The notes under the pieces are model-generated. The model did not search any database. It saw nothing but the letters and a program-made list of their open reading frames with translations, and was not told the DNA's origin. A DNA stretch of 64,000 nucleotides from Ferroplasma acidiphilum (GTDB lineage: Archaea; Thermoplasmatota; Thermoplasmata; Thermoplasmatales; Thermoplasmataceae): NCBI RefSeq assembly GCF_002078355.1, contig NZ_CP015363.1:930001-994000 (forward strand). The letters are read 5' to 3'. Positions 1-61,243 of the stretch are shown here, piece by piece. Position 1 is the stretch's first letter. The number at the start of each line of letters is the position of its first letter. A program made the position numbers and the translations under genes.

Positions 1-2205
1 ATTGTCCCTCAAATAATCCTTTATTATCACAGAGGCATTGTCATAATCAAATTTATTATTCTTTCTAGCTGCATTCAAAAAGAAATATATCTCCTTTTTA
101 ATCAGAGAAATATTATTACATCTAATTTTATTCCATCTCATACCATTCAATAGTGAACTTTCCAGTTCTACAAGTATAGTCTCATTCCAGGAGTTATAAA
201 ATATGTTGTTAGAAAAAGATAATAATGCATGCAACTTGGACCTCAATGCTATCTCAATAACATTTACGAGATATCTTAAAATATCACTATCTTTTTTAGG
301 GTCGTTGAGATATATATAGTAGGTAGAATCAAAAAGAAAATTATCCAGTTTGGCATTCGCATCATCAAGCGTAAGTACAATGTTATTTACCTTTAAGTCT
401 GATTCCACATTCGAAGATAACTTCAAGAACTTATCCATATTCATAAATGGTATAGCACCTGGAAATGACAGAAATAATATAGCCGATGAATATTTTGCCC
501 CAACTTTAGGTGCCAGTACATGCCTGAGGGAAAATTCATATATTGTGTATGGATCGATTTTTCCATTTGATATCCCGGACGTTGGTAGTCTGTTATTAAA
601 CGAGTTTGTTCCTAATCCAAATAAATTTTCAATATGCGCGGCAGTCTTTGCCGGATAGCCGCTAATCATGGACATGGATATTTTATCTGGCACTGCAGGT
701 AGGTTAATATTGTTTACATTGAGGATTATATTAATTATTTCCGATACTATTTCTTCGTTATTTTCACTTTTTGAACCTGCATTTATATCTGTTAAAATAT
801 CACTTTCAATATTGTCCCAGTTTATTTTATTATTTTCTTTACCGGCTAGTAGCAGTGGGATCAAAAATGCAGATTTAGATTTATTATTTTTCGGGAGAAA
901 ATTTTCCAGTATAGAAATATTGTCATCCAGAATATCATCCAGTTTGTTCCTTATCATGTATGCCTGTTCAGATTTAAGTGTTGTTTTGAGCTGGACATAC
1001 CTGATATAAAATGCATGCAGGCGCTCCTGTATTTTACCGGATTCTTCCATATCTATCGAATTACTGTCATAGTATGTTTCAGCTTCAACGTATTCCCTCA
1101 CACTTCTGGGAGTGCGCTTCTTGTTCTCCGGCATATCTTTGTGAAAATTTATTGAAAAAGACTCAAGATTAGCTATGTGGTCAGAGTATATTTCAGCGTT
1201 ATGCCGCATTTCATCCCGTAATGGAATATTTTCGAGATGCAGTACCTGTTTAAATTTTGTGCCGTCGGCTACGAATTTTAAAAGTATTTCTTTATTAATT
1301 GAACCTATGTTGGAGCTGGATATATCTATTTTCCTATCTGTTAATGTTATTCCGTTTTCCAGGTGAGCCTTGATGCCAATTTCCCTTGTTAGTTCATTAG
1401 CTAGAATTTTAACATCCAACGAAATTGCAGTATCTCTCACATAGTATATCGAATTCAAAGTGCTCCATAAATAAAACCCGTTATTTTTTTCTATATTTTG
1501 TATTATTATTTTCTTCAAAAACGATGAAGTGGTTATAAATGTTGTATTTGTAATGTTGATTTTCTGAATTCTAGATTTTGGAATACATGGCGCATTGTTA
1601 AAATATATATCTTTTATATTATCGTTATTATCGGAAAATATGCTTGATAGAGTATCCGCCAATCTAGAAAAACTGCTCTCAAATTGAAGATTATGTTCCA
1701 GACTCACGTCAATAGAATTAGAAATATACTGTGTTCCTTTCTCAGTTGCGAACGCTATGAAATAAACATCATCTTTTGATAATTCCAATTCTGCCATTAT
1801 AGAAGAGAACTTTTCCAATTGTGTATCAAGTTCTGATTTGTCTCGCATATATTTGTTTTCCTCATAATTAGATAACTTATTAAAATCATGGAAGAGATAT
1901 CCAAAAATTGATCGTTTTAGCTTCTTGGTAATATTTTCTATCTCCTCTTCGGGATTTTTATTTAAGTATTTGTAGTCAAATACTTTGAGAGCCATTGCTG
2001 TACCGGAAAATATATGAATTAAATAGAACATATCGCTTTTATTGGCATAGGAGTCCTTTTCGTTCCCACCTTTTGCACATTTCATAAAATCAGGATCCAT
2101 CCACAAAGGCGAAAATATTGAATTTGTAGCCCACTCCATAGCTTCAGTAAATAAACGATTCTGAAAATTGATTATATTCTCTACATTAATATTATTAGAT
2201 TTCAT
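1..2205 (-). CDS. cas10d: Cas10d/Csc3-like large subunit of a type I-D CRISPR effector (partial, 3' end beyond the left edge)
   Basis: An uninterrupted left-going frame of 735 codons runs from an ATG at 2205 off the window edge; Csc3 proteins are usually about 900-1000 residues, so the C-terminus is missing. Seen: an N-terminal HD motif (YLFHDFNKL, H106-D107), followed by an RLADTLSSIF segment as in the HD domains of Cas10-type proteins. Then comes a region (FLKKII..GFYLWSTLNSIYYV) resembling the Csc3 stretch that ends in a hydrophobic 'fpnGvvYl' strand. Known: Cas10d combines an HD nuclease with an inactive polymerase-like fold and forms the large subunit of type I-D Cascade. The ATG overlaps the stop of cas6 as ATGA, so the two are translationally coupled. 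Alternative: a diverged type III Cas10. The missing C-terminus and unseen csc1/csc2/cas3 would settle it. Confidence 0.8.
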   Translation of the reverse strand, partial: MKSNNINVENIINFQNRLFTEAMEWATNSIFSPLWMDPDFMKCAKGGNEKDSYANKSDMFYLIHIFSGTAMALKVFDYKYLNKNPEEEIENITKKLKRSIFGYLFHDFNKLSNYEENKYMRDKSELDTQLEKFSSIMAELELSKDDVYFIAFATEKGTQYISNSIDVSLEHNLQFESSFSRLADTLSSIFSDNNDNIKDIYFNNAPCIPKSRIQKINITNTTFITTSSFLKKIIIQNIEKNNGFYLWSTLNSIYYVRDTAISLDVKILANELTREIGIKAHLENGITLTDRKIDISSSNIGSINKEILLKFVADGTKFKQVLHLENIPLRDEMRHNAEIYSDHIANLESFSINFHKDMPENKKRTPRSVREYVEAETYYDSNSIDMEESGKIQERLHAFYIRYVQLKTTLKSEQAYMIRNKLDDILDDNISILENFLPKNNKSKSAFLIPLLLAGKENNKINWDNIESDILTDINAGSKSENNEEIVSEIINIILNVNNINLPAVPDKISMSMISGYPAKTAAHIENLFGLGTNSFNNRLPTSGISNGKIDPYTIYEFSLRHVLAPKVGAKYSSAILFLSFPGAIPFMNMDKFLKLSSNVESDLKVNNIVLTLDDANAKLDNFLFDSTYYIYLNDPKKDSDILRYLVNVIEIALRSKLHALLSFSNNIFYNSWNETILVELESSLLNGMRWNKIRCNNISLIKKEIYFFLNAARKNNKFDYDNASVIIKDYLRDN

Positions 2206-34558: not shown

Positions 34559-35719
34559 ATGAATAATTCAGGCAATACTGTATATATCATAGATTCAAAA
34601 AGGACGCCCATAGGCAAAAGGAATGGGAGTTTAAAAGATGTGCATCCCGTGGACCTTCTGGGCAATCTAACCAGAGATACTCTTGCAATTAATAAAATTG
34701 ACCCTCATTGGATTGATGATGTTATAACAGGCTGTGTTGACCAGGTAGGAAACCAGGGTGCAGATATTGCAAGGAATTCATGGCTGTCTGCAGGCCTTCC
34801 AGAATCAACTCCCGGTGTTACCATAGACAGGCAATGTGGATCAAGCTTGCAGGCAATTGAGTTTGCAAAAAATGGCATAATATCCGGCGATTATAATATT
34901 GCAATTGCCAGCGGTGTAGAATCTATGACCAGGATACCCATACTTAGCACTATTAAAGACGCAAACCCGGTGACTGAAAGTTTGAACCTCAGGTATAAAA
35001 TGAATAATGAATGGTTCAGCCAGGCATACGGTGCAGAACTTATAGCAGAGAAATATGGAATATTAAGGGAGGATATGGATTTTCTTGGTTATACAAGCCA
35101 TATGAGGGCATCGCAATCAAGGAATGTATTTCAACACGAGATTCTTCCTGTAAAAAATAACGGGAATACCATACTTGAAAAAGATGAAGGAATAAGGGAT
35201 AGTCCGGATTTAAAGAAGATGAACCAATTGCCTCCTGCCTTCCCAAACTTGAAATTAGTCACAGCTGGTAATTCAAGCCAGATATCTGACGGGGCAAGCA
35301 TTGCAATTCTTGCATCTGAAGATGCTGTAGAAGAGTATAATTTAAAGCCGGTCGCAAAAATCGTATCCACTGCTGCAGTTGGCGTAAATCCAGTTACGAT
35401 GCTAACCGGCCCGATACCGGTAACAAAGAAGGTTCTGGACCGTGCAGGGATGAAAATTGAAGACATTGACGTTTTTGAAGTTAATGAGGCATTTGCATCT
35501 GTGGTGCTTGCATGGGAGAAGGAATTAAATGTGCCACATGAAAAGGTAAATGTTAAAGGAGGTGCTGTAGCACTGGGCCATCCATTAGGTGCAACCGGTA
35601 CAAGAATAGTTTCAACAATGGTGAATATTTTAAATACAAGAAAATTACACTATGGATTAATAGCAATATGTGAAGGCGGGGGCATGGCTAATGGCGCTAT
35701 AATAGAGAGGGTAGAATAG
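34559..35719 (+). CDS. Thiolase (acetyl-CoA C-acyltransferase)
   Basis: 386 aa, full length for the dimeric degradative/biosynthetic thiolase group. Nucleophile Cys93 in DRQCGSSLQA; NEAFA Asn/Glu motif; catalytic His in GHPLGATGTR; second Cys in CEGGGMANG. All four catalytic elements are present, unlike many archaeal SCPx-type thiolases that lack the second Cys. Reaction: acyl-CoA + acetyl-CoA to 3-ketoacyl-CoA or the reverse, as in beta-oxidation. Followed 190 bp later by an acyl-CoA synthetase on the same strand, which supports fatty-acid breakdown. Confidence 0.92.
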   Translation: MNNSGNTVYIIDSKRTPIGKRNGSLKDVHPVDLLGNLTRDTLAINKIDPHWIDDVITGCVDQVGNQGADIARNSWLSAGLPESTPGVTIDRQCGSSLQAIEFAKNGIISGDYNIAIASGVESMTRIPILSTIKDANPVTESLNLRYKMNNEWFSQAYGAELIAEKYGILREDMDFLGYTSHMRASQSRNVFQHEILPVKNNGNTILEKDEGIRDSPDLKKMNQLPPAFPNLKLVTAGNSSQISDGASIAILASEDAVEEYNLKPVAKIVSTAAVGVNPVTMLTGPIPVTKKVLDRAGMKIEDIDVFEVNEAFASVVLAWEKELNVPHEKVNVKGGAVALGHPLGATGTRIVSTMVNILNTRKLHYGLIAICEGGGMANGAIIERVE

Positions 35720-35905
35720 AGAAATTGTTTCCTATAAACTTCTCTTTTTAAATAGTTGAGAGGTGCTTAAATGGAGCTATGTATAGTTAATTGCAATAAT
35801 AACTTTGTAAAGCATTAATATTATATGATTCAAAAGTATGTTCCCATTCACTGTCGGCGATAGTACTGTTAGATAAGATTATATAATGGTATGGATTAAA
35901 TATTT

Positions 35906-37588
35906 ATGGAAATAGACAGAAAAGAAAAAACAAATTCCATACCTGACGAATTCTTTAACATAACCGAAGATAACATTAAAAAACTTAGAAATAGGCATAA
36001 CAAAATAAGAAGGTGGGTAATAGCTGATTTTTTAAAACGGAATGCCTGTAGATATCCGGAAAAGGCCGCCCTGATTTTTAACCATCCGGGAAAGGGAGAA
36101 ATTAAATTAACGTATCCTGAACTTGAAGCGAACTCCAACAGGGCAGCAAACGCATTTCTAAACTTAGGAATTCAAAAATACGACAGAATTGCGATCCTGG
36201 CTCATAATACCCTTCATCATGTCTTAACAATATTCGGGGCTGCCAAAGCGGGTGGAATCTATTTAGCTCTTAATTATCTCATGTCTGGAAAGGACCTGGC
36301 TTATTGCATAAACCATTCCGAGGCAAAAGTGCTCATTGTAGAAGATTCATTATATGATAAAATAAAAGGCGTTTTAGGCGATCTGAAAACTGTTAAAACA
36401 TTTATATGGTCAAACCAGGGTTTAAACGATCCACCGCCGGACAATAAGTGGCTGAATTTTGATGAATTGCATGAAACTTTTTCTTCTGAAGAGCCAGATA
36501 TTATCTTAAATATTGAGGATCCGGTAACATTCACCTACACAAGTGGAACCGAGGCATTGCCTAAGGCCGTTGTTCTGTCCAACGAATCACTCATTTCAGA
36601 GTATGTTGGTGCCATTATTGACGGCAAATACAACTCCGATGACATAAACCTTAATCCAATGCCTATTTTTCATGTTGCCCAACGGGATGTTTTTGTAATG
36701 CCCATATTTTATATTGGCGGAACAAACATAATGTTAACAAACCCGAATCCAGAGAACATTTTATGGTATGTAGATAGGTATAAGCCCACAATACTTTTCC
36801 TTGCCCCCACAGTTTGGATTAGCCTGCTGAGATATCCTGATTTTGACAAATATGATTTCAGTTCCCTTACAAAGTGCTACTATGGAGCTTCAATATTTCC
36901 AGAAGAACCACTTAAAGAATTGATGAAAAAGCTTCCTCAGGCCAGGTTTTACAATTACTATGGCCAGACGGAGCTGGCTCCGTACCATACAGTGGCAAAT
37001 CATGAAGATATTTTAAGATTGCCCAAAACTGCAGGAAGAAGTGGCCTGAACATGCAAACAAGAATTGAAGATGCCAATCATAATGAGATAATTGAGCCAG
37101 GCATTCCAGGAGAGGTCACGGGAAGGGGAGCCCATGTTATGCTAATGTATTTTAAAGACCCGGAAAAGACGGAAGAGACGTTTAAGCATGGATGGTTCCA
37201 CACCGGAGATATTGGATTCATGGGCAACGATAGATATCTTGAGATAGCTGATAGGAAGAAAGATATGATTAAAACCGGGGGAGAAAATGTCTCTAGCAGG
37301 GAAGTTGAAGAGGCAATATTTAAACATCCGGACATCTCGGAAGTTACCGTTATAGGTTTGCCACACAGGAGATGGGTAGAAGCCGTCACAGCTATAGTGG
37401 TACCCAAACCTGAAAGAACTATAAACCCGGATGAAGTAATAGAATTATGTAGAAAAGAGCTCTCACCTTTCAAGGTTCCTAAGGCTGTGATAGTTATCAA
37501 GCCGGATGAACTCCCAAAATCGCCATCTGGAAAAATATTGAAGAGGGATTTGCGGAATACATTTGCCAATTACTATGAAACAAAATAA
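35906..37588 (+). CDS. Acyl-CoA synthetase (AMP-forming)
   Basis: 560 aa. The P-loop-like A3 motif is TYTSGTEALPKAVV (residues about 210-223; the usual TTG is TEA). A5 is YNYYGQTELAP, A7 GWFHTGDIGF, A8 ADRKKDMIKTGGENVSSREVE, and A10 PKSPSGKILKRDLR with the catalytic Lys. Known: activates a carboxylic acid to acyl-AMP and then acyl-CoA. The thiolase just upstream makes a role in fatty or branched-chain acid breakdown likely. Chain length cannot be told. The A3 change is moderate and should be tolerated. Confidence 0.9.
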   Translation: MEIDRKEKTNSIPDEFFNITEDNIKKLRNRHNKIRRWVIADFLKRNACRYPEKAALIFNHPGKGEIKLTYPELEANSNRAANAFLNLGIQKYDRIAILAHNTLHHVLTIFGAAKAGGIYLALNYLMSGKDLAYCINHSEAKVLIVEDSLYDKIKGVLGDLKTVKTFIWSNQGLNDPPPDNKWLNFDELHETFSSEEPDIILNIEDPVTFTYTSGTEALPKAVVLSNESLISEYVGAIIDGKYNSDDINLNPMPIFHVAQRDVFVMPIFYIGGTNIMLTNPNPENILWYVDRYKPTILFLAPTVWISLLRYPDFDKYDFSSLTKCYYGASIFPEEPLKELMKKLPQARFYNYYGQTELAPYHTVANHEDILRLPKTAGRSGLNMQTRIEDANHNEIIEPGIPGEVTGRGAHVMLMYFKDPEKTEETFKHGWFHTGDIGFMGNDRYLEIADRKKDMIKTGGENVSSREVEEAIFKHPDISEVTVIGLPHRRWVEAVTAIVVPKPERTINPDEVIELCRKELSPFKVPKAVIVIKPDELPKSPSGKILKRDLRNTFANYYETK

Positions 37589-54740: not shown

Positions 54741-55442
54741 TCAGGACATTTCGTTATATGTACTCTGATTAGGGTTCTGGTTATTTTCAGAAGGCTTTGC
54801 TTCACCGGGAAGTTTTGCAAATGCTACTATAAGGCGCACTATTCCGCGCAATATCGGGACGATGCCTATAAATATAATAATTCGAACTATGTCAAGAAGC
54901 ATTGCATTGTTAGGTATATCACTATAGAAAATGAAAATAGCAATTGATGTAATAGTACTAATTGTACCGGTAAGCAGGAACAATGATGCAGTATGAAATT
55001 CATCACTTCCAATTAATTTTCCCACTCTATTATATGCAATATATTGGAAAATTATAGAAACGATGCCTGGCACCAGAAACAGAAAGAGAACGAGTAAAAG
55101 TAAAGTGAGAAATGAAGTATTTATTACAGATATGCTATTTGCACCTGTTGCAGAGCTTACACCCGGCACATATACCAGGACTAATAAGCCCGTAGATGCA
55201 ACTGCTAGTATAGCTCCTGAAATCAGGCTGTATAGCATATACTTAAACGGCGTCTGATTGCTATAATAGTTAGATATAGATTTACCTGCAAGGAAAAGTA
55301 AAATTAACCCTGCAATTGAGATTATAAACCCCAATTCTTTGAATATAAGAAATACAGGAACACCAGCAAATTCTAGAATTACCCCCATAATTCCATATGT
55401 ACGTGCCTGTTTGAGTTCCTGACTCTTTTGAGCGTTATTCAT
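54741..55442 (-). CDS. DUF996 membrane protein, copy 1
   Basis: 233 aa with about six helices. The N-terminal QELKQARTYGIMGVILEFAG and the KSISNYYSNQTPFKYMLYSLISG loop are the family's conserved parts. The C-terminal tail is cytoplasmic (AKLPGEAKPSENNQNPNQ). Known: DUF996 is a common archaeal membrane family of unknown function. A paralogue lies 235 bp upstream on the same strand, sharing near-identical DNA over the central loop, so they are a recent tandem duplication. Confidence 0.8.
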   Translation of the reverse strand: MNNAQKSQELKQARTYGIMGVILEFAGVPVFLIFKELGFIISIAGLILLFLAGKSISNYYSNQTPFKYMLYSLISGAILAVASTGLLVLVYVPGVSSATGANSISVINTSFLTLLLLVLFLFLVPGIVSIIFQYIAYNRVGKLIGSDEFHTASLFLLTGTISTITSIAIFIFYSDIPNNAMLLDIVRIIIFIGIVPILRGIVRLIVAFAKLPGEAKPSENNQNPNQSTYNEMS

Positions 55443-55676
55443 ATATTATAGATACTTGTAAATATTAAAAACTTTTGTTTTAAAATCATCTCTAATCCTT
55501 TTAATAGTTTTATAACGAATTTAAGTTACAGAATATCATATTATTAGGATGGAATTCAAAAGGCAAATATTAACAGGATAATATTTAGATTCACAAATGG
55601 ATCGATAAAATATGGAGATGCAAAACATGGTGTTATAAAATAAATGAAATGATGTTTTTCCGTTTCTATAGCCGGT

Positions 55677-56351
55677 TTAGAATATTTCTTTGTTAGTATC
55701 CTGATTAAAAGTTTGATCATTTAAAGCAGGCTTTGCTTCGCCCGGAAGTTTCGCAAATGCTATTATGAGAAATATTATTCCAATGAACATCAGGATAACG
55801 CCTATAACTATAATAGCTAGAATTATACCAATAAGTAGTAGCAATGCCGCGGTATGAAACTCATGTATTCCAGTTAATTTCCCTACACTGTCGTATGCCA
55901 TATATTGAAAAATTATAGAAACGAAGCTTGGCACCAGTACCAGAACTACTATAAGCAAGAATATAGAAATTAGTGACATATAAAAAGTAGATGTGCTACC
56001 GGTACTTGATGCAGAGTTAAATATGGGTATGAGTAACAGAAATAATGATATTCCTGCTACAACTGCTAATATGATGCCGGAAATTAGGCTGTATAGCATA
56101 TACTTAAACGGCGTCTGATTGCTATAATTGTTAGATATAGATTTAACTGCAAGGAAAAGTAAAATTAATCCGATAATTGAGATGATGAGGCCCAATCCAT
56201 GAAATATAATATCTGCTGGACCACCAATAAATTCTAGGATTATCCCCATAATTCCATATGTACGCGCCGATTCCAGTTCCTGAATCTTTTGTGTATTCGT
56301 ATTTATGGTATGATAATGGTTATTATAAATTATTGTTCTAAAATTACCCAT
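55677..56351 (-). CDS. DUF996 membrane protein, copy 2
   Basis: 224 aa with about six helices, same family as copy 1. IQELESARTYGIMGIILEFIGG, AVKSISNNYSNQTPFKYMLYSLISG and AFAKLPGEAKPALNDQ all align. The start is uncertain: the ATG at 56351 adds about 15 residues (MGNFRTIIYNNHYHT) absent from copy 1 and overlapping a TATA-like TTTATAATAA. No ATG/GTG/TTG lies at the equivalent of copy 1's start. Diverges from the short gene at 56383 with 31 bp between. Confidence 0.78.
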   Translation of the reverse strand: MGNFRTIIYNNHYHTINTNTQKIQELESARTYGIMGIILEFIGGPADIIFHGLGLIISIIGLILLFLAVKSISNNYSNQTPFKYMLYSLISGIILAVVAGISLFLLLIPIFNSASSTGSTSTFYMSLISIFLLIVVLVLVPSFVSIIFQYMAYDSVGKLTGIHEFHTAALLLLIGIILAIIVIGVILMFIGIIFLIIAFAKLPGEAKPALNDQTFNQDTNKEIF

Positions 56352-58349: not shown

Positions 58350-58853
58350 TTATAAATTATCCATATTAATATTTGAATTGCTTAAATCCTGGTAATCGGC
58401 ATGGAAATACGTTGGCTCCAGTGTTGCGTCCTGTATAGTTATGTTTCCGCTTATTACGCCAGTAATCGATGTAATTGGAGTTAATATTCCATCAACAGCA
58501 GTATCTAACACAGAGAAACCCAGGGAATTCGACCACAGATTAAGTCCTGTAAGATTTCCGGATGTTGCGGTTATATTGACTTTCCCATTTGATGCAGTTA
58601 TATGTATAAGCGACAGGGATGTGAGGTTGGCACTTACTGCTGTTATGTGGTATGTACCATTTAATAAACAAGGTGTAATAACACCATCGTGCAATGTTAT
58701 ACTTGTAATATTCATATATGCTGGCTGGGATCCAGAATTTGAGGCTGAATACTGATTGCCTGGTATACTGGTACTGTATGGTACAAAAATAATGGATGAT
58801 AATAGAATAACTGCCACAATTGGCACAACTATTAGATATTTTTTATTTACCAT
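58350..58853 (-). CDS. Exported beta-rich protein, last gene of the acyl-CoA ligase operon
   Basis: 167 aa from the ATG at 58853, 4 nt after GGAG; an ATG at 58862 adds three residues. N-terminal VNKKYLIVVPIVAVILLSSIIFVPY is a signal anchor. The rest is Ser/Thr/Asn-rich with repeated beta-like units (SITLHDGVITPC, LIHITASNGKVNITATSGNLTG, ITSITGVISGNITIQDATLEP) and many N-x-S/T sites. A single Cys in ITPC matches the position of ITSPC in the first gene of the operon, suggesting paralogy. The start lies inside the end of the ligase gene (58843). Probably cell-surface; function unknown. Confidence 0.65.
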   Translation of the reverse strand: MVNKKYLIVVPIVAVILLSSIIFVPYSTSIPGNQYSASNSGSQPAYMNITSITLHDGVITPCLLNGTYHITAVSANLTSLSLIHITASNGKVNITATSGNLTGLNLWSNSLGFSVLDTAVDGILTPITSITGVISGNITIQDATLEPTYFHADYQDLSNSNINMDNL

Positions 58854-60534
58854 TATCTCCACCGCGCAAAGCTTTCTTGTCTACTTTGCCAACAAGGGTC
58901 AATGGAAGTTCATCCCTGAACTCTATTATTTTCGGTACTTTATAAACCGCTAACCTTTCTTTGCAGAAATTTATTATCTCAACATCCGTGAGTGAACTGT
59001 CCTTCTTTACAATAAATGCCTTTACTGTTTCACCGCGATGTGCATCTTTTACCCCTATAACAGCACACTCAGAAACTTTCGGGTTTTCATATATAACTTC
59101 CTCGATCTCACGCGGGTATATGTTATAGCCGCCTGCTATAATTAAATCCTTTTCACGGTCGACGATATATACGTAACCATCTTCATCCATCTTTGCAATA
59201 TCACCGGTATGCAGCCACCCATCTACCAGCGTTTTTGCATTTTCATCAGGCCTGTTCCAGTATCCTTTCATAACCTGCGGGCCTTTAATGAGAAGTTCTC
59301 CAGGTTCATTAAGAGGCATTTCAGTTACTCCATCCTCTGTTGAAACAATTTTTTCATATGTATTGGACACAGGCAAGCCGACAGAGCCAAATCTCCTGTA
59401 TTTTTCCCTCTCATCCTCAACCAGGGGTGTAACATTTGCAACAGGAGAGCATTCACTTAACCCATAGCCCTCTACGAGAATTGCGCCGGTCATTGATTCA
59501 AAATTCTTCTGCAGTTCCACAGGCAATGGAGATGCTCCTGAAATACATATTTTTACATTGTCAATATGGTATTTTTTAACATCCTTATATGTAATTATTC
59601 CATGGTAAAGTGTTGGTATTCCTGGAAATGCTACGGGCTTTTTCTTATCTATTATTTTTAATGCCGTCTTAATATCCCTTGGATCCGGTATAAGGATAAT
59701 TTTAGAGCCCTGCAGCAATGGTGTCAACATTGCCGTCATCATGCCGTATACATGGAAAAATGGTATTGATGATAGATAGGAAATATTTTTCTTATACTCT
59801 TCAGGCATGTATTCGATTATCTGATATGCATTTGAAATTAAGTTTTTATGTGTAAGTATTGCAGCCTTTGGCATTCCAGTGGTGCCCCCAGTATACTGCA
59901 GCAGGGCAGGATCATTTTCAGGGTCAATATCGGCTTCCTTTGATACGAATCGGGATTTTTTAGGTACCTTGCATAAATATATATTGTCGGCTACAGGTAT
60001 CTTCTTATGTTCTTTTTTAATCAATGTATAGAGCTGTGATACAACAGGTGGCAGGTAATATTGAACCTTCACAACAAGAATTCTTTTCAATTTGGCCGGA
60101 TATAATGGCAATGCCTTATCTATAAAATCATCCATTACTATAAGTGTATTTGCCCCTGAATCCTTTATTTCAAATTCCAGTTCCCGTATTGTATACAATG
60201 GGTTTACCTGTACAATAACAGCACCAAGTTTAACAATCGCAAAGAAATATGTTATGTACTGCGGTATGTTAGGCAGCATAACTGCAATTCTGTCACCTTT
60301 GGTGATGCCTAACTCCCCCAACCTTACAGAAATAGAATCAATTTTTTCTTTCAGGCTACTGTAGGTTATTTTTTTGCCCATGAAATCTATTGCAATATTA
60401 TCTTTATTTTTTTCAACTGAGTCGGAGAATGCTCTGTATATGCTAATATCCGGTATTTCAATGGTTCTCCTTACCCACGGAGGGTAGCTTTTCTGTAAAG
60501 CTTCATCAAGGCTGTTAACCTTTACTTCAATCAT
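58843..60534 (-). CDS. Long-chain fatty-acid-CoA ligase (FadD-like)
   Basis: 563 aa, full length. A3 is LLQYTGGTTGMPKAAILTH; A5 LVEGYGLSECSP; A7 DGWLHTGDIAKMDEDGYVYIVDREKDLIIAGGYNIYPREIEE spans A7-A8; A10 LPLTLVGKVDKKALR with the catalytic Lys. Activates fatty acids to acyl-CoA via acyl-AMP. ATG overlaps the stop of the upstream exported protein (ATGA at 60531-60534), and the downstream exported protein starts within its last codons. Such tight packing with two surface proteins is unusual for a fadD and suggests a linked role, for example acylation or lipid uptake. Confidence 0.92.
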   Translation of the reverse strand: MIEVKVNSLDEALQKSYPPWVRRTIEIPDISIYRAFSDSVEKNKDNIAIDFMGKKITYSSLKEKIDSISVRLGELGITKGDRIAVMLPNIPQYITYFFAIVKLGAVIVQVNPLYTIRELEFEIKDSGANTLIVMDDFIDKALPLYPAKLKRILVVKVQYYLPPVVSQLYTLIKKEHKKIPVADNIYLCKVPKKSRFVSKEADIDPENDPALLQYTGGTTGMPKAAILTHKNLISNAYQIIEYMPEEYKKNISYLSSIPFFHVYGMMTAMLTPLLQGSKIILIPDPRDIKTALKIIDKKKPVAFPGIPTLYHGIITYKDVKKYHIDNVKICISGASPLPVELQKNFESMTGAILVEGYGLSECSPVANVTPLVEDEREKYRRFGSVGLPVSNTYEKIVSTEDGVTEMPLNEPGELLIKGPQVMKGYWNRPDENAKTLVDGWLHTGDIAKMDEDGYVYIVDREKDLIIAGGYNIYPREIEEVIYENPKVSECAVIGVKDAHRGETVKAFIVKKDSSLTDVEIINFCKERLAVYKVPKIIEFRDELPLTLVGKVDKKALRGGDNGK

Positions 60535-61103
60535 TTTATCACCATTCTAATATCTGCCATGACCGTGTGGGCCGCCAGGAATGAAAAGCCAAGGTTTAGA
60601 TTGTTCATACTGAAAGACCCTGCCTTCTGGTATGATGCATTTATAGTCACATTTGTCTGGGTTATCTGGTTAGCTGTTATTGTGAAATGGGGATTTTCAG
60701 ATATAGTTAGATTCACGTATGATGTGTTTGTGGCATATATATGGTATGCATATAAAGTAACATTGGTACCTACCGCACAGGGTGAAGTGATTGTTGTAGA
60801 TGTTGTGGAATTTATGTATTTTGTAAGTACCATACTGGAAATAACGACTTTGCTCATAGTAACTTTATATTCAGTAACACCACTGACGTTGATAGTTTGT
60901 ATCTCCGGGTTAGTTAAGGTCATTTTAGATGCTTTAATAGAGAAATCGGTTAAGCTTATAGACTTTGCGGTTACTGTTCCTGATGTTACCGCTGCATATG
61001 AAACACCGGAAACTATGCTAATTGCAGCTAAAGCAATTGCAATAGTAATTAATTTATTCCTCCTTGCGTGGATATTTTTTGTATTGTCAATAAATCTTGA
61101 TAT
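60531..61103 (-). CDS. Exported Thr/Ser-rich protein, first gene of the acyl-CoA ligase operon; non-standard start
   Basis: 190 aa if read from an ATA at 61103. The first ATG in frame (60923) would leave out a clear signal peptide that the open frame encodes (RRNKLITIAIALAAISIVSGVSYA, with a likely AxA cleavage site). GGTG lies 6 nt before the ATA, and the frame is blocked just upstream by TAA, so no standard start fits. The mature part is beta-rich (TVTAKSISLTDFSIKASKMTL, TTITSPCAVGTNVTLYAYHI) with many N-x-S/T sites and one Cys. It overlaps the ligase ATG by 4 nt. Related in style to the third gene; function unknown. Confidence 0.6.
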   Translation of the reverse strand: MSRFIDNTKNIHARRNKLITIAIALAAISIVSGVSYAAVTSGTVTAKSISLTDFSIKASKMTLTNPEIQTINVSGVTEYKVTMSKVVISSMVLTKYINSTTSTTITSPCAVGTNVTLYAYHIYATNTSYVNLTISENPHFTITANQITQTNVTINASYQKAGSFSMNNLNLGFSFLAAHTVMADIRMVIK

Positions 61104-61243
61104 TTATATCACCTTTTACAGTAAATTATTATTAGTGACTTATATAAACATGACTGCAGGGAAGTTATAACTCTTAATTAGTGTTTAGAAAGCTCTATTT
61201 CTCTATAATAACATTAATTAACCATATGCATTTATATTTACTT

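Follow-up and report, generated by a model that had tools for sequence, protein, structure and literature searches.

The 64,000-nucleotide stretch of Ferroplasma acidiphilum DNA analysed here, hereafter the window (positions 930,001 to 994,000 of contig NZ_CP015363.1; the host genome is one contig of 1.83 Mb), carries on its minus strand three genes placed head to tail, which code for a putatively exported protein designated A, an acyl-CoA ligase and a second putatively exported protein designated B, and which constitute a small, lineage-restricted operon. Gene A (P0001, 190 aa), whose product is predicted to be exported or membrane-anchored, occupies positions 60531..61103, with an apparent AUA start at 61103-61101. 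It is followed by the gene for a long-chain-type acyl-CoA ligase (P0002, 563 aa; 58843..60534), recognized by Pfam and NCBIfam models and by adenylate-forming motifs, and then by gene B (P0003; 58350..58853), which encodes 167 aa when read from the ATG at 58853, a GTG at 58862 being also possible, and which is identified by its open reading frame, by constraint between two species and by an N-terminal hydrophobic segment. An earlier note on this DNA had described three genes here, each overlapping the next by a few bases, and this layout is borne out in place and strand: the stop codon of gene A and the start codon of the ligase gene share 4 nt (ATGA, 60531-60534), and the stop of the ligase gene overlaps the ATG of gene B by 11 nt (58843-58853). 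The interval assigned to the block was also right as to location, with 61103 being the 5' end of gene A only if ATA is read as its start codon. Upstream of gene A lies a TATA-like element, TTTATATAAG (61139..61148, minus strand), which would serve as an archaeal promoter. The ribosome-binding sequence GGTGAT precedes gene A (61108..61113, minus strand) and also the ligase gene, where it is situated within the 3' end of gene A (60538..60543, minus strand), and GGTGG at 58863, within the ligase gene, is a ribosome-binding-type sequence for gene B. From these signals we infer one transcript starting from the TATA-like box before gene A, with translational coupling of the ligase to gene A. The same order is present in Ferroplasma acidarmanus Fer1 (NC_021592.1), in which A, ligase and B are all collinear.

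Protein A very probably starts at AUA, because a homologue has ATG aligned with this ATA, GGTGAT lies four bases upstream and no usual start codon occurs before codon 61. In the frame of gene A, ATA is the first codon past the in-frame stop, and the first ATG, GTG or TTG is found at 60923 (codon 61), from where initiation would delete the signal segment. The ATA is unchanged in Fer1, and the homologue in question (P0011, 57% identical), encoded by a genome of another genus of the same family (G271), has ATG in the corresponding alignment column. Within the window, GGTGAT is followed 3-7 bases on by a frame of at least 100 codons at 26 placements, among which the usual starts are three ATG (53484, 60534 and 4175) and one TTG (50733), all at a spacing of 3-4 nt, and the sole ATA is that of gene A. 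Codons 1-45 of gene A differ between F. acidiphilum and Fer1 by one synonymous change and by no amino-acid change and, as judged by comparison of the sequences, selection has continued to act on the protein product of gene A, including its signal segment, even though the gene begins with ATA. Physiologically, AUA initiation would hold the yield of protein A low relative to that of the ligase. If the AUA start is true, an annotation that begins at the first ATG loses the entire signal segment and conceals that protein A is exported. Antisense to gene A runs an open frame of 203 aa (60559-61170, plus strand), which is open in Fer1 too; it is taken as a by-product, because only a 62-aa antisense frame is listed opposite gene A in G271.

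The N-terminal signal or anchor that the earlier note had ascribed to both exported proteins corresponds to a single hydrophobic segment in each, with a best 19-residue mean hydropathy of 2.16 in A and 2.89 in B and next best values of 1.41 and 1.28, respectively. In both proteins, sequence and hydropathy windows reveal a positively charged n-region and, after it, a hydrophobic stretch of at least 15 residues. Their described richness in Thr, Ser and Asn was equally confirmed, with these residues making up 37% of A and 36% of B outside the N-terminal segment. A and B are thus pictured as exported and held by the N-terminal hydrophobic segment, with an outer Thr/Ser/Asn-rich part that is probably beta-rich, and their location would be the external side of the membrane. 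Comparison with Fer1 indicates that A and B are real protein-coding genes under purifying selection, since synonymous changes are in excess between the two species: 14 of the 20 changed codons in A and 17 of the 29 in B are synonymous, as against an expected 26% (P 4e-5 and 2.5e-4, respectively), and dN/dS amounts to 0.13 for A and 0.23 for B, with 0.05 for the ligase when measured past its frameshifted part. Homology between A and B could not be detected (BLASTP E 0.84; profile E 0.13), and on these values the two were rejected as mutual relatives. The abundance of N-glycosylation sites noted earlier for both proteins holds at most for A. Protein A has 7 sequons, six of them conserved in position in P0011, and its shuffled versions average 3.7, with 200 of 5000 attaining 7; P0011 itself has 9 sequons in total (18 of 5000 shuffles reach 9), while the 6 sequons of B, compared with a mean of 3.6, are within chance (578 of 5000 shuffles reach 6) and represent no clear excess. 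Glycosylation of A is plausible, because archaeal N-glycosylation genes are reported for relatives of the Ferroplasma group in the available extract of PMC3750248.

The earlier note had also described one Cys in a T-x-P-C or T-P-C motif in both proteins and had raised surface-protein lipidation; in one reading, the ligase would provide the acyl-CoA with which A and B are covalently lipidated at these residues. In this genome, A and B do carry just one Cys each beyond the N-terminal segment. However, Cys109 of A is absent from P0011 and Cys62 of B is absent from Fer1, so that no conserved acceptor Cys for lipidation was found in A or in B, and neither residue, given its position (109 and 62), directly follows the N-terminal segment. 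With neither Cys conserved, the common motif does not stand, and lipidation at Cys, being contradicted rather than supported, is extremely improbable.

The ligase itself has the features of an ordinary adenylate-forming enzyme. It matches both Pfam AMP-binding (E 1.4e-85, 287.8 bits, cut-off 29.9) and AMP-binding_C (E 5.9e-19, 69.2 bits, cut-off 24.5), and its nine best NCBIfam models are all long-chain-fatty-acid--CoA ligases (best E 1.6e-151), in agreement with the FadD-like label first given to it. The motifs that we take to define such enzymes are all present: P-loop (215), GYGLSE (356), GDI (444), KDLIIAGGYNI (462) and the C-terminal GK (549). P0002 resembles FadD-type long-chain-fatty-acid--CoA ligases in domains, motifs and length, but differs from them in scoring under the curated NCBIfam cut-offs (505.2 bits vs 1116, 498.9 vs 766 and, as the closest, 447.4 vs 476) and in the placement of its gene between two exported-protein genes. 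As far as domains and motifs can tell, its most likely role is to convert fatty acids, or else different carboxylic acids, into their CoA esters in the cytoplasm and so prepare them for beta-oxidation. The ether lipids of archaea contain no fatty acids. In the available extract of PMC3750248, a full set of homologues of the Escherichia coli fatty-acid oxidation genes is reported for Thermoplasmatales living in acid mine drainage, with lipids from lysed cells mentioned among the carbon sources that they might use. The solved structures closest to the ligase include feruloyl-CoA and 4-coumarate-CoA ligases and malonyl-CoA synthetase besides fatty-acid ligases, and with 10 AMP-binding matches in the genome, substrate roles may be divided. 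Both observations are consistent with an enzyme whose substrates are instead aromatic or short organic acids, to which the cell is freely permeable at pH 1-2, in which case the operon would serve their use or detoxification. The exclusively long-chain identity of the best NCBIfam models speaks against such a specificity, though those models shown are scored below their cut-offs, and we regard it as unlikely. A second acyl-CoA cluster is present in the window at 34559-37588 (plus strand), where a thiolase gene adjoins the gene of another AMP-binding ligase.

Pairing of gene A with the ligase gene is not confined to Ferroplasma, and the unusual layout of a ligase together with surface proteins, to which attention had been drawn earlier, is real. 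In G271 the order of a transposase-like gene, A and ligase is conserved; GGTGAT there overlaps the stop codon of A just before the ligase ATG (L095), and the contig ends inside the ligase gene, beyond which any gene B would lie. Searching 117 genomes of the order with a profile of A yielded three intact A genes, those of F. acidiphilum, Fer1 and G271, all of which precede a ligase gene (the Fer1 ligase frame being broken), and no intact A away from a ligase gene was found in the genomes searched. The block is bordered divergently by a transposase-like gene, P0004 (61244..62569, plus strand; an upstream GTG at 61181 is also in the open reading frame), and this gene has the same position in six genomes: F. 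acidiphilum, Fer1, G004 (interrupted), G271, G341 and G025 (decayed). Among these six, A is intact in three, with the ligase gene next to it each time.

Tentatively, we favour a reading in which an ordinary fatty-acyl-CoA ligase is co-expressed with dispensable, lineage-restricted, membrane-anchored surface proteins that may help in fatty-acid uptake. The argument for coupling consists in the gene overlaps, the position of the ligase ribosome-binding site, which lies within A in one genus and at its end in the other, and the occurrence of intact A only before the ligase. According to this scheme, guessed from co-expression, A and B may collect or hand over hydrophobic acids such as those set free by cell lysis; the ligase would then trap such acids as CoA esters (vectorial acylation), activating them in the cytoplasm and feeding beta-oxidation. 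Since the ligase persists in sister lineages that lack A and B, these two proteins would be no more than optional aids. A role of A and B in lipid handling or fatty-acid uptake is plausible as a guess. If the exported proteins do feed the ligase, the operon offers a genetic handle on archaeal fatty-acid uptake.

Other results weigh against this reading. Within the order, A is intact in only 3 of the 117 genomes and decayed in a fourth (G341), and B is intact in just two (F. acidiphilum and Fer1), which are closely related. In G341, A contains stops next to an intact ligase gene; in G025, no A was found beside an intact ligase gene; and in G004, where the ligase is again intact, A is reduced to a C-terminal relic, FSMNDLNTS (for FSMNNLNLG), 89 bases before the ligase gene. 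The reverse situation prevails in Fer1, whose A and B are intact next to a frame-broken ligase, which is the opposite of what tight coupling predicts. Furthermore, nothing in the sequences of A or B speaks directly for lipid binding, and their AlphaFold2 models were unusable (mean pLDDT 32.3 and 33.6), so that no lipid-binding fold could be demonstrated; too few homologues are probably the cause.

These results bring in the alternative of no functional link, in which the ligase works alone and A and B, as surface proteins peculiar to the lineage (envelope glycoproteins, for instance), have come to be on its transcript through historical accident. It draws on the retention of the ligase without A or B in most relatives having it, on the intact ligase genes with A relic, decayed A or no A in G004, G341 and G025, on the retention of A and B beside the broken ligase in Fer1 and on the limitation of B to two close relatives. 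On the other hand, the pairing of A and ligase persists over two genera, with the ligase GGTGAT inside A in one and on the A stop codon in the other, and the absence of intact A elsewhere in the genomes searched also argues for a connection. We consider this alternative quite possible, and if A and B are indeed unlinked to the ligase, the locus becomes a warning against inferring function from a lineage-specific operon. For an ordinary enzyme to be tied to orphan exported proteins is unusual, and the tie is insecure.

Several lines of evidence bear on how A and B were distributed and lost. At E<=1e-80, the ligase was found in 29 of the 61 genomes searched, this genome included, and the best matches to A and B in the 60 relatives were at E 9e-4 (with internal stops) and 0.002, respectively. 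At 12 of the 30 returned ligase loci, the 1.5-kb flanks were examined; no intact A or B adjoined the ligase gene at these, and the more distant orthologues had other neighbour genes. Conservation of the ligase alone with unrelated neighbours, which the earlier note had named as the finding that would refute its proposal, is thus largely what was observed, with the A-ligase pair still standing in two genera. In the genome collection, protein A had one relative, that of Fer1 (97% identical), and when 389 genomes sampled from the phylum were searched, the further matches to A and B were all weak. In the search of the order, a match to A in G001 (E 0.0014, with stops) was dropped, as was a weak match to B in G023 (E 0.0042), the latter without inspection. 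In a tree of 21 ligases, those of F. acidiphilum and G004 are sisters (100/99), with the branching of the wider Ferroplasma-type ligases unresolved. The presence of A in G271 suggests that A was in the common ancestor of F. acidiphilum and G004; therefore, G004 would have lost A after the split. In a first DNA test for relics in G004, performed with two scoring schemes, the observed scores were reached by 35 and 4 of 500 shuffles for A and by 320 and 368 of 500 for B. The relic of A was accepted on a narrower test, in which 3 of 2000 shuffles reached the score, a number that fell to 0 of 2000 once the ribosome-binding site was left out. An overlapping part of the same stretch is matched about equally by the promoter side of A (1 of 2000), and the choice of alignment is a matter of judgement. 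A possible relic of B in G004 comes from one tblastn match (E 0.006 in 20 kb) at the expected place; some of this match falls where gene B would overlap the end of the ligase gene, and it gains no support from the DNA shuffles. In Fer1, the ligase gene has a one-base loss and, about 110 bases on, a one-base gain, with main-frame stops between them (L085, ~6.6-6.8 kb; A3 columns 108-218), for which either a sequencing error or a genuine disruption of the gene could be responsible. Between the A relic and the ligase gene of G341 lies a gene read from its sequence as TnpB-like (L096 8490-9710, plus strand).

A more elaborate version of the uptake proposal would have two orphan, membrane-anchored beta proteins, probably glycosylated, gather fatty acids or hydrocarbons from highly acidic surroundings and pass them to a FadD-type ligase translated from the same message, with A kept low by its AUA start. 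We judge this version distinctly unlikely; if true, it would make protein A a candidate for a family of fatty-acid receptors on the archaeal surface, known so far from two genera.

A possible relationship to a known exported family was also examined. Protein A gave a match to DUF6230 (PF19741), an exported actinobacterial family, at E 0.0034 and 18.1 bits, and so did its Fer1 copy (P0005; E 0.0081, 16.9 bits), both below the cut-off of 27.5 bits; for comparison, four family members from actinobacteria were retrieved, and their assignment to DUF6230 was verified. With this family A has in common an N-terminal hydrophobic segment, a length of about 190-200 aa and the weak match, which runs C-terminus to C-terminus. 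The family includes a protein called cholesterol esterase in Streptomyces, and a frame near one DUF6230 gene (L084) resembles acyl-CoA dehydrogenase by eye. In Geobacillus, the alkane-induced, membrane-anchored pair P21 and P16 has N-termini like those of the Streptomyces cholesterol esterase (PMC2676291). On these grounds A could be taken as a distant archaeal relative of DUF6230 and B as a relative of the beta domain neighbouring it, forming a surface system for lipid esters or hydrocarbons. However, P0011 has no DUF6230 match at E up to 10 (a range in which HMMER filters remove the majority of matches beyond 0.1), the DUF6230 cut-off is reached nowhere in 292 genomes of the phylum, and the profile-profile E worsened from 0.055 with two rows of A to 0.33, with a changed alignment, upon addition of P0011. 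Shuffled sequences reach the DUF6230 score in 52 (P0001), 130 (P0005) and 971 (P0011) of 5000 cases. Similarly, the likeness of B to the beta domain beside DUF6230 in Embleya does not rise above shuffles (590 and 1352 of 5000 for the two copies of B), and no acyl-CoA ligase was present among the frames listed, without library annotation, at the four fetched DUF6230 loci. The Geobacillus proteins are like A and B in being small exported proteins with an N-terminal signal, their expression tied to hydrocarbon use, but they are bacterial, are not induced by palmitic acid, have negligible whole-length similarity to the esterase and are likened to A and B by description; a ligase operon is not mentioned in the available extract of PMC2676291. 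Thus, membership of A in DUF6230, a lead that failed once P0011 was added, was rejected, and we hold even a distant relationship of this kind to be very unlikely, although proteins like the Geobacillus pair would suit a role with hydrophobic substrates.

In the sequence-family libraries, A and B have no match above cut-off, and among solved structures the best sequence matches (E 0.24 for A and 0.025 for B) are not credible. Relatives of A were found neither in viral contigs and plasmids with P0001, nor in phages and plasmids with P0011, nor in viral contigs with the profile, and B (P0003) had none in viral contigs and plasmids; in PHROGs, P0011 had one weak match to a family of unknown function (E 0.015). 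Inspection of 4 of the 6 weak non-self matches to A (L010, L011, L012 and L015) and 3 of the 24 to B (L018, L022 and L024) revealed no relative, and a match to B in G168 (E 5.7e-6) was rejected as antisense to another gene and containing stops. Literature on Ferroplasma acyl-CoA synthetase, on FadD operons of Thermoplasmatales and on DUF6230 contained no description that we could find of this operon. In the phylum sample, six weak matches to A were obtained at E 0.003-0.01, three of which were inspected. Two of them (L110 in G168 and L112 in G407) are stretches of long frames of 824 and 643 aa; with L112, P0011 aligns over 137 residues at 28% identity (E 1.3e-6 within 3.2 kb, composition correction off), which we take as a general resemblance of exported beta domains. 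The third (L111 in G035) falls in a frame for an exported protein of 194 aa (1300-1884, minus strand) that shares 21% identity with A (composition correction off; E 3.4e-4 within 3.3 kb), adjoins apparent ABC-transporter genes and is perhaps a remote relative of A.

As to the surroundings of the operon, P0004 owes its transposase-like label to reading of its sequence, its library matches being limited to a marginal one to Eaf7. Because genomes of the same genus hold 0-3 matches to it each, P0004 is suggested to be a domesticated transposase, possibly with a role as a local regulator. Further along the window, at 54741-56351 (minus strand), two similar membrane-protein genes adjoin each other, the second matching DUF996; for Fer1, one copy of this pair is listed, with displaced matches.

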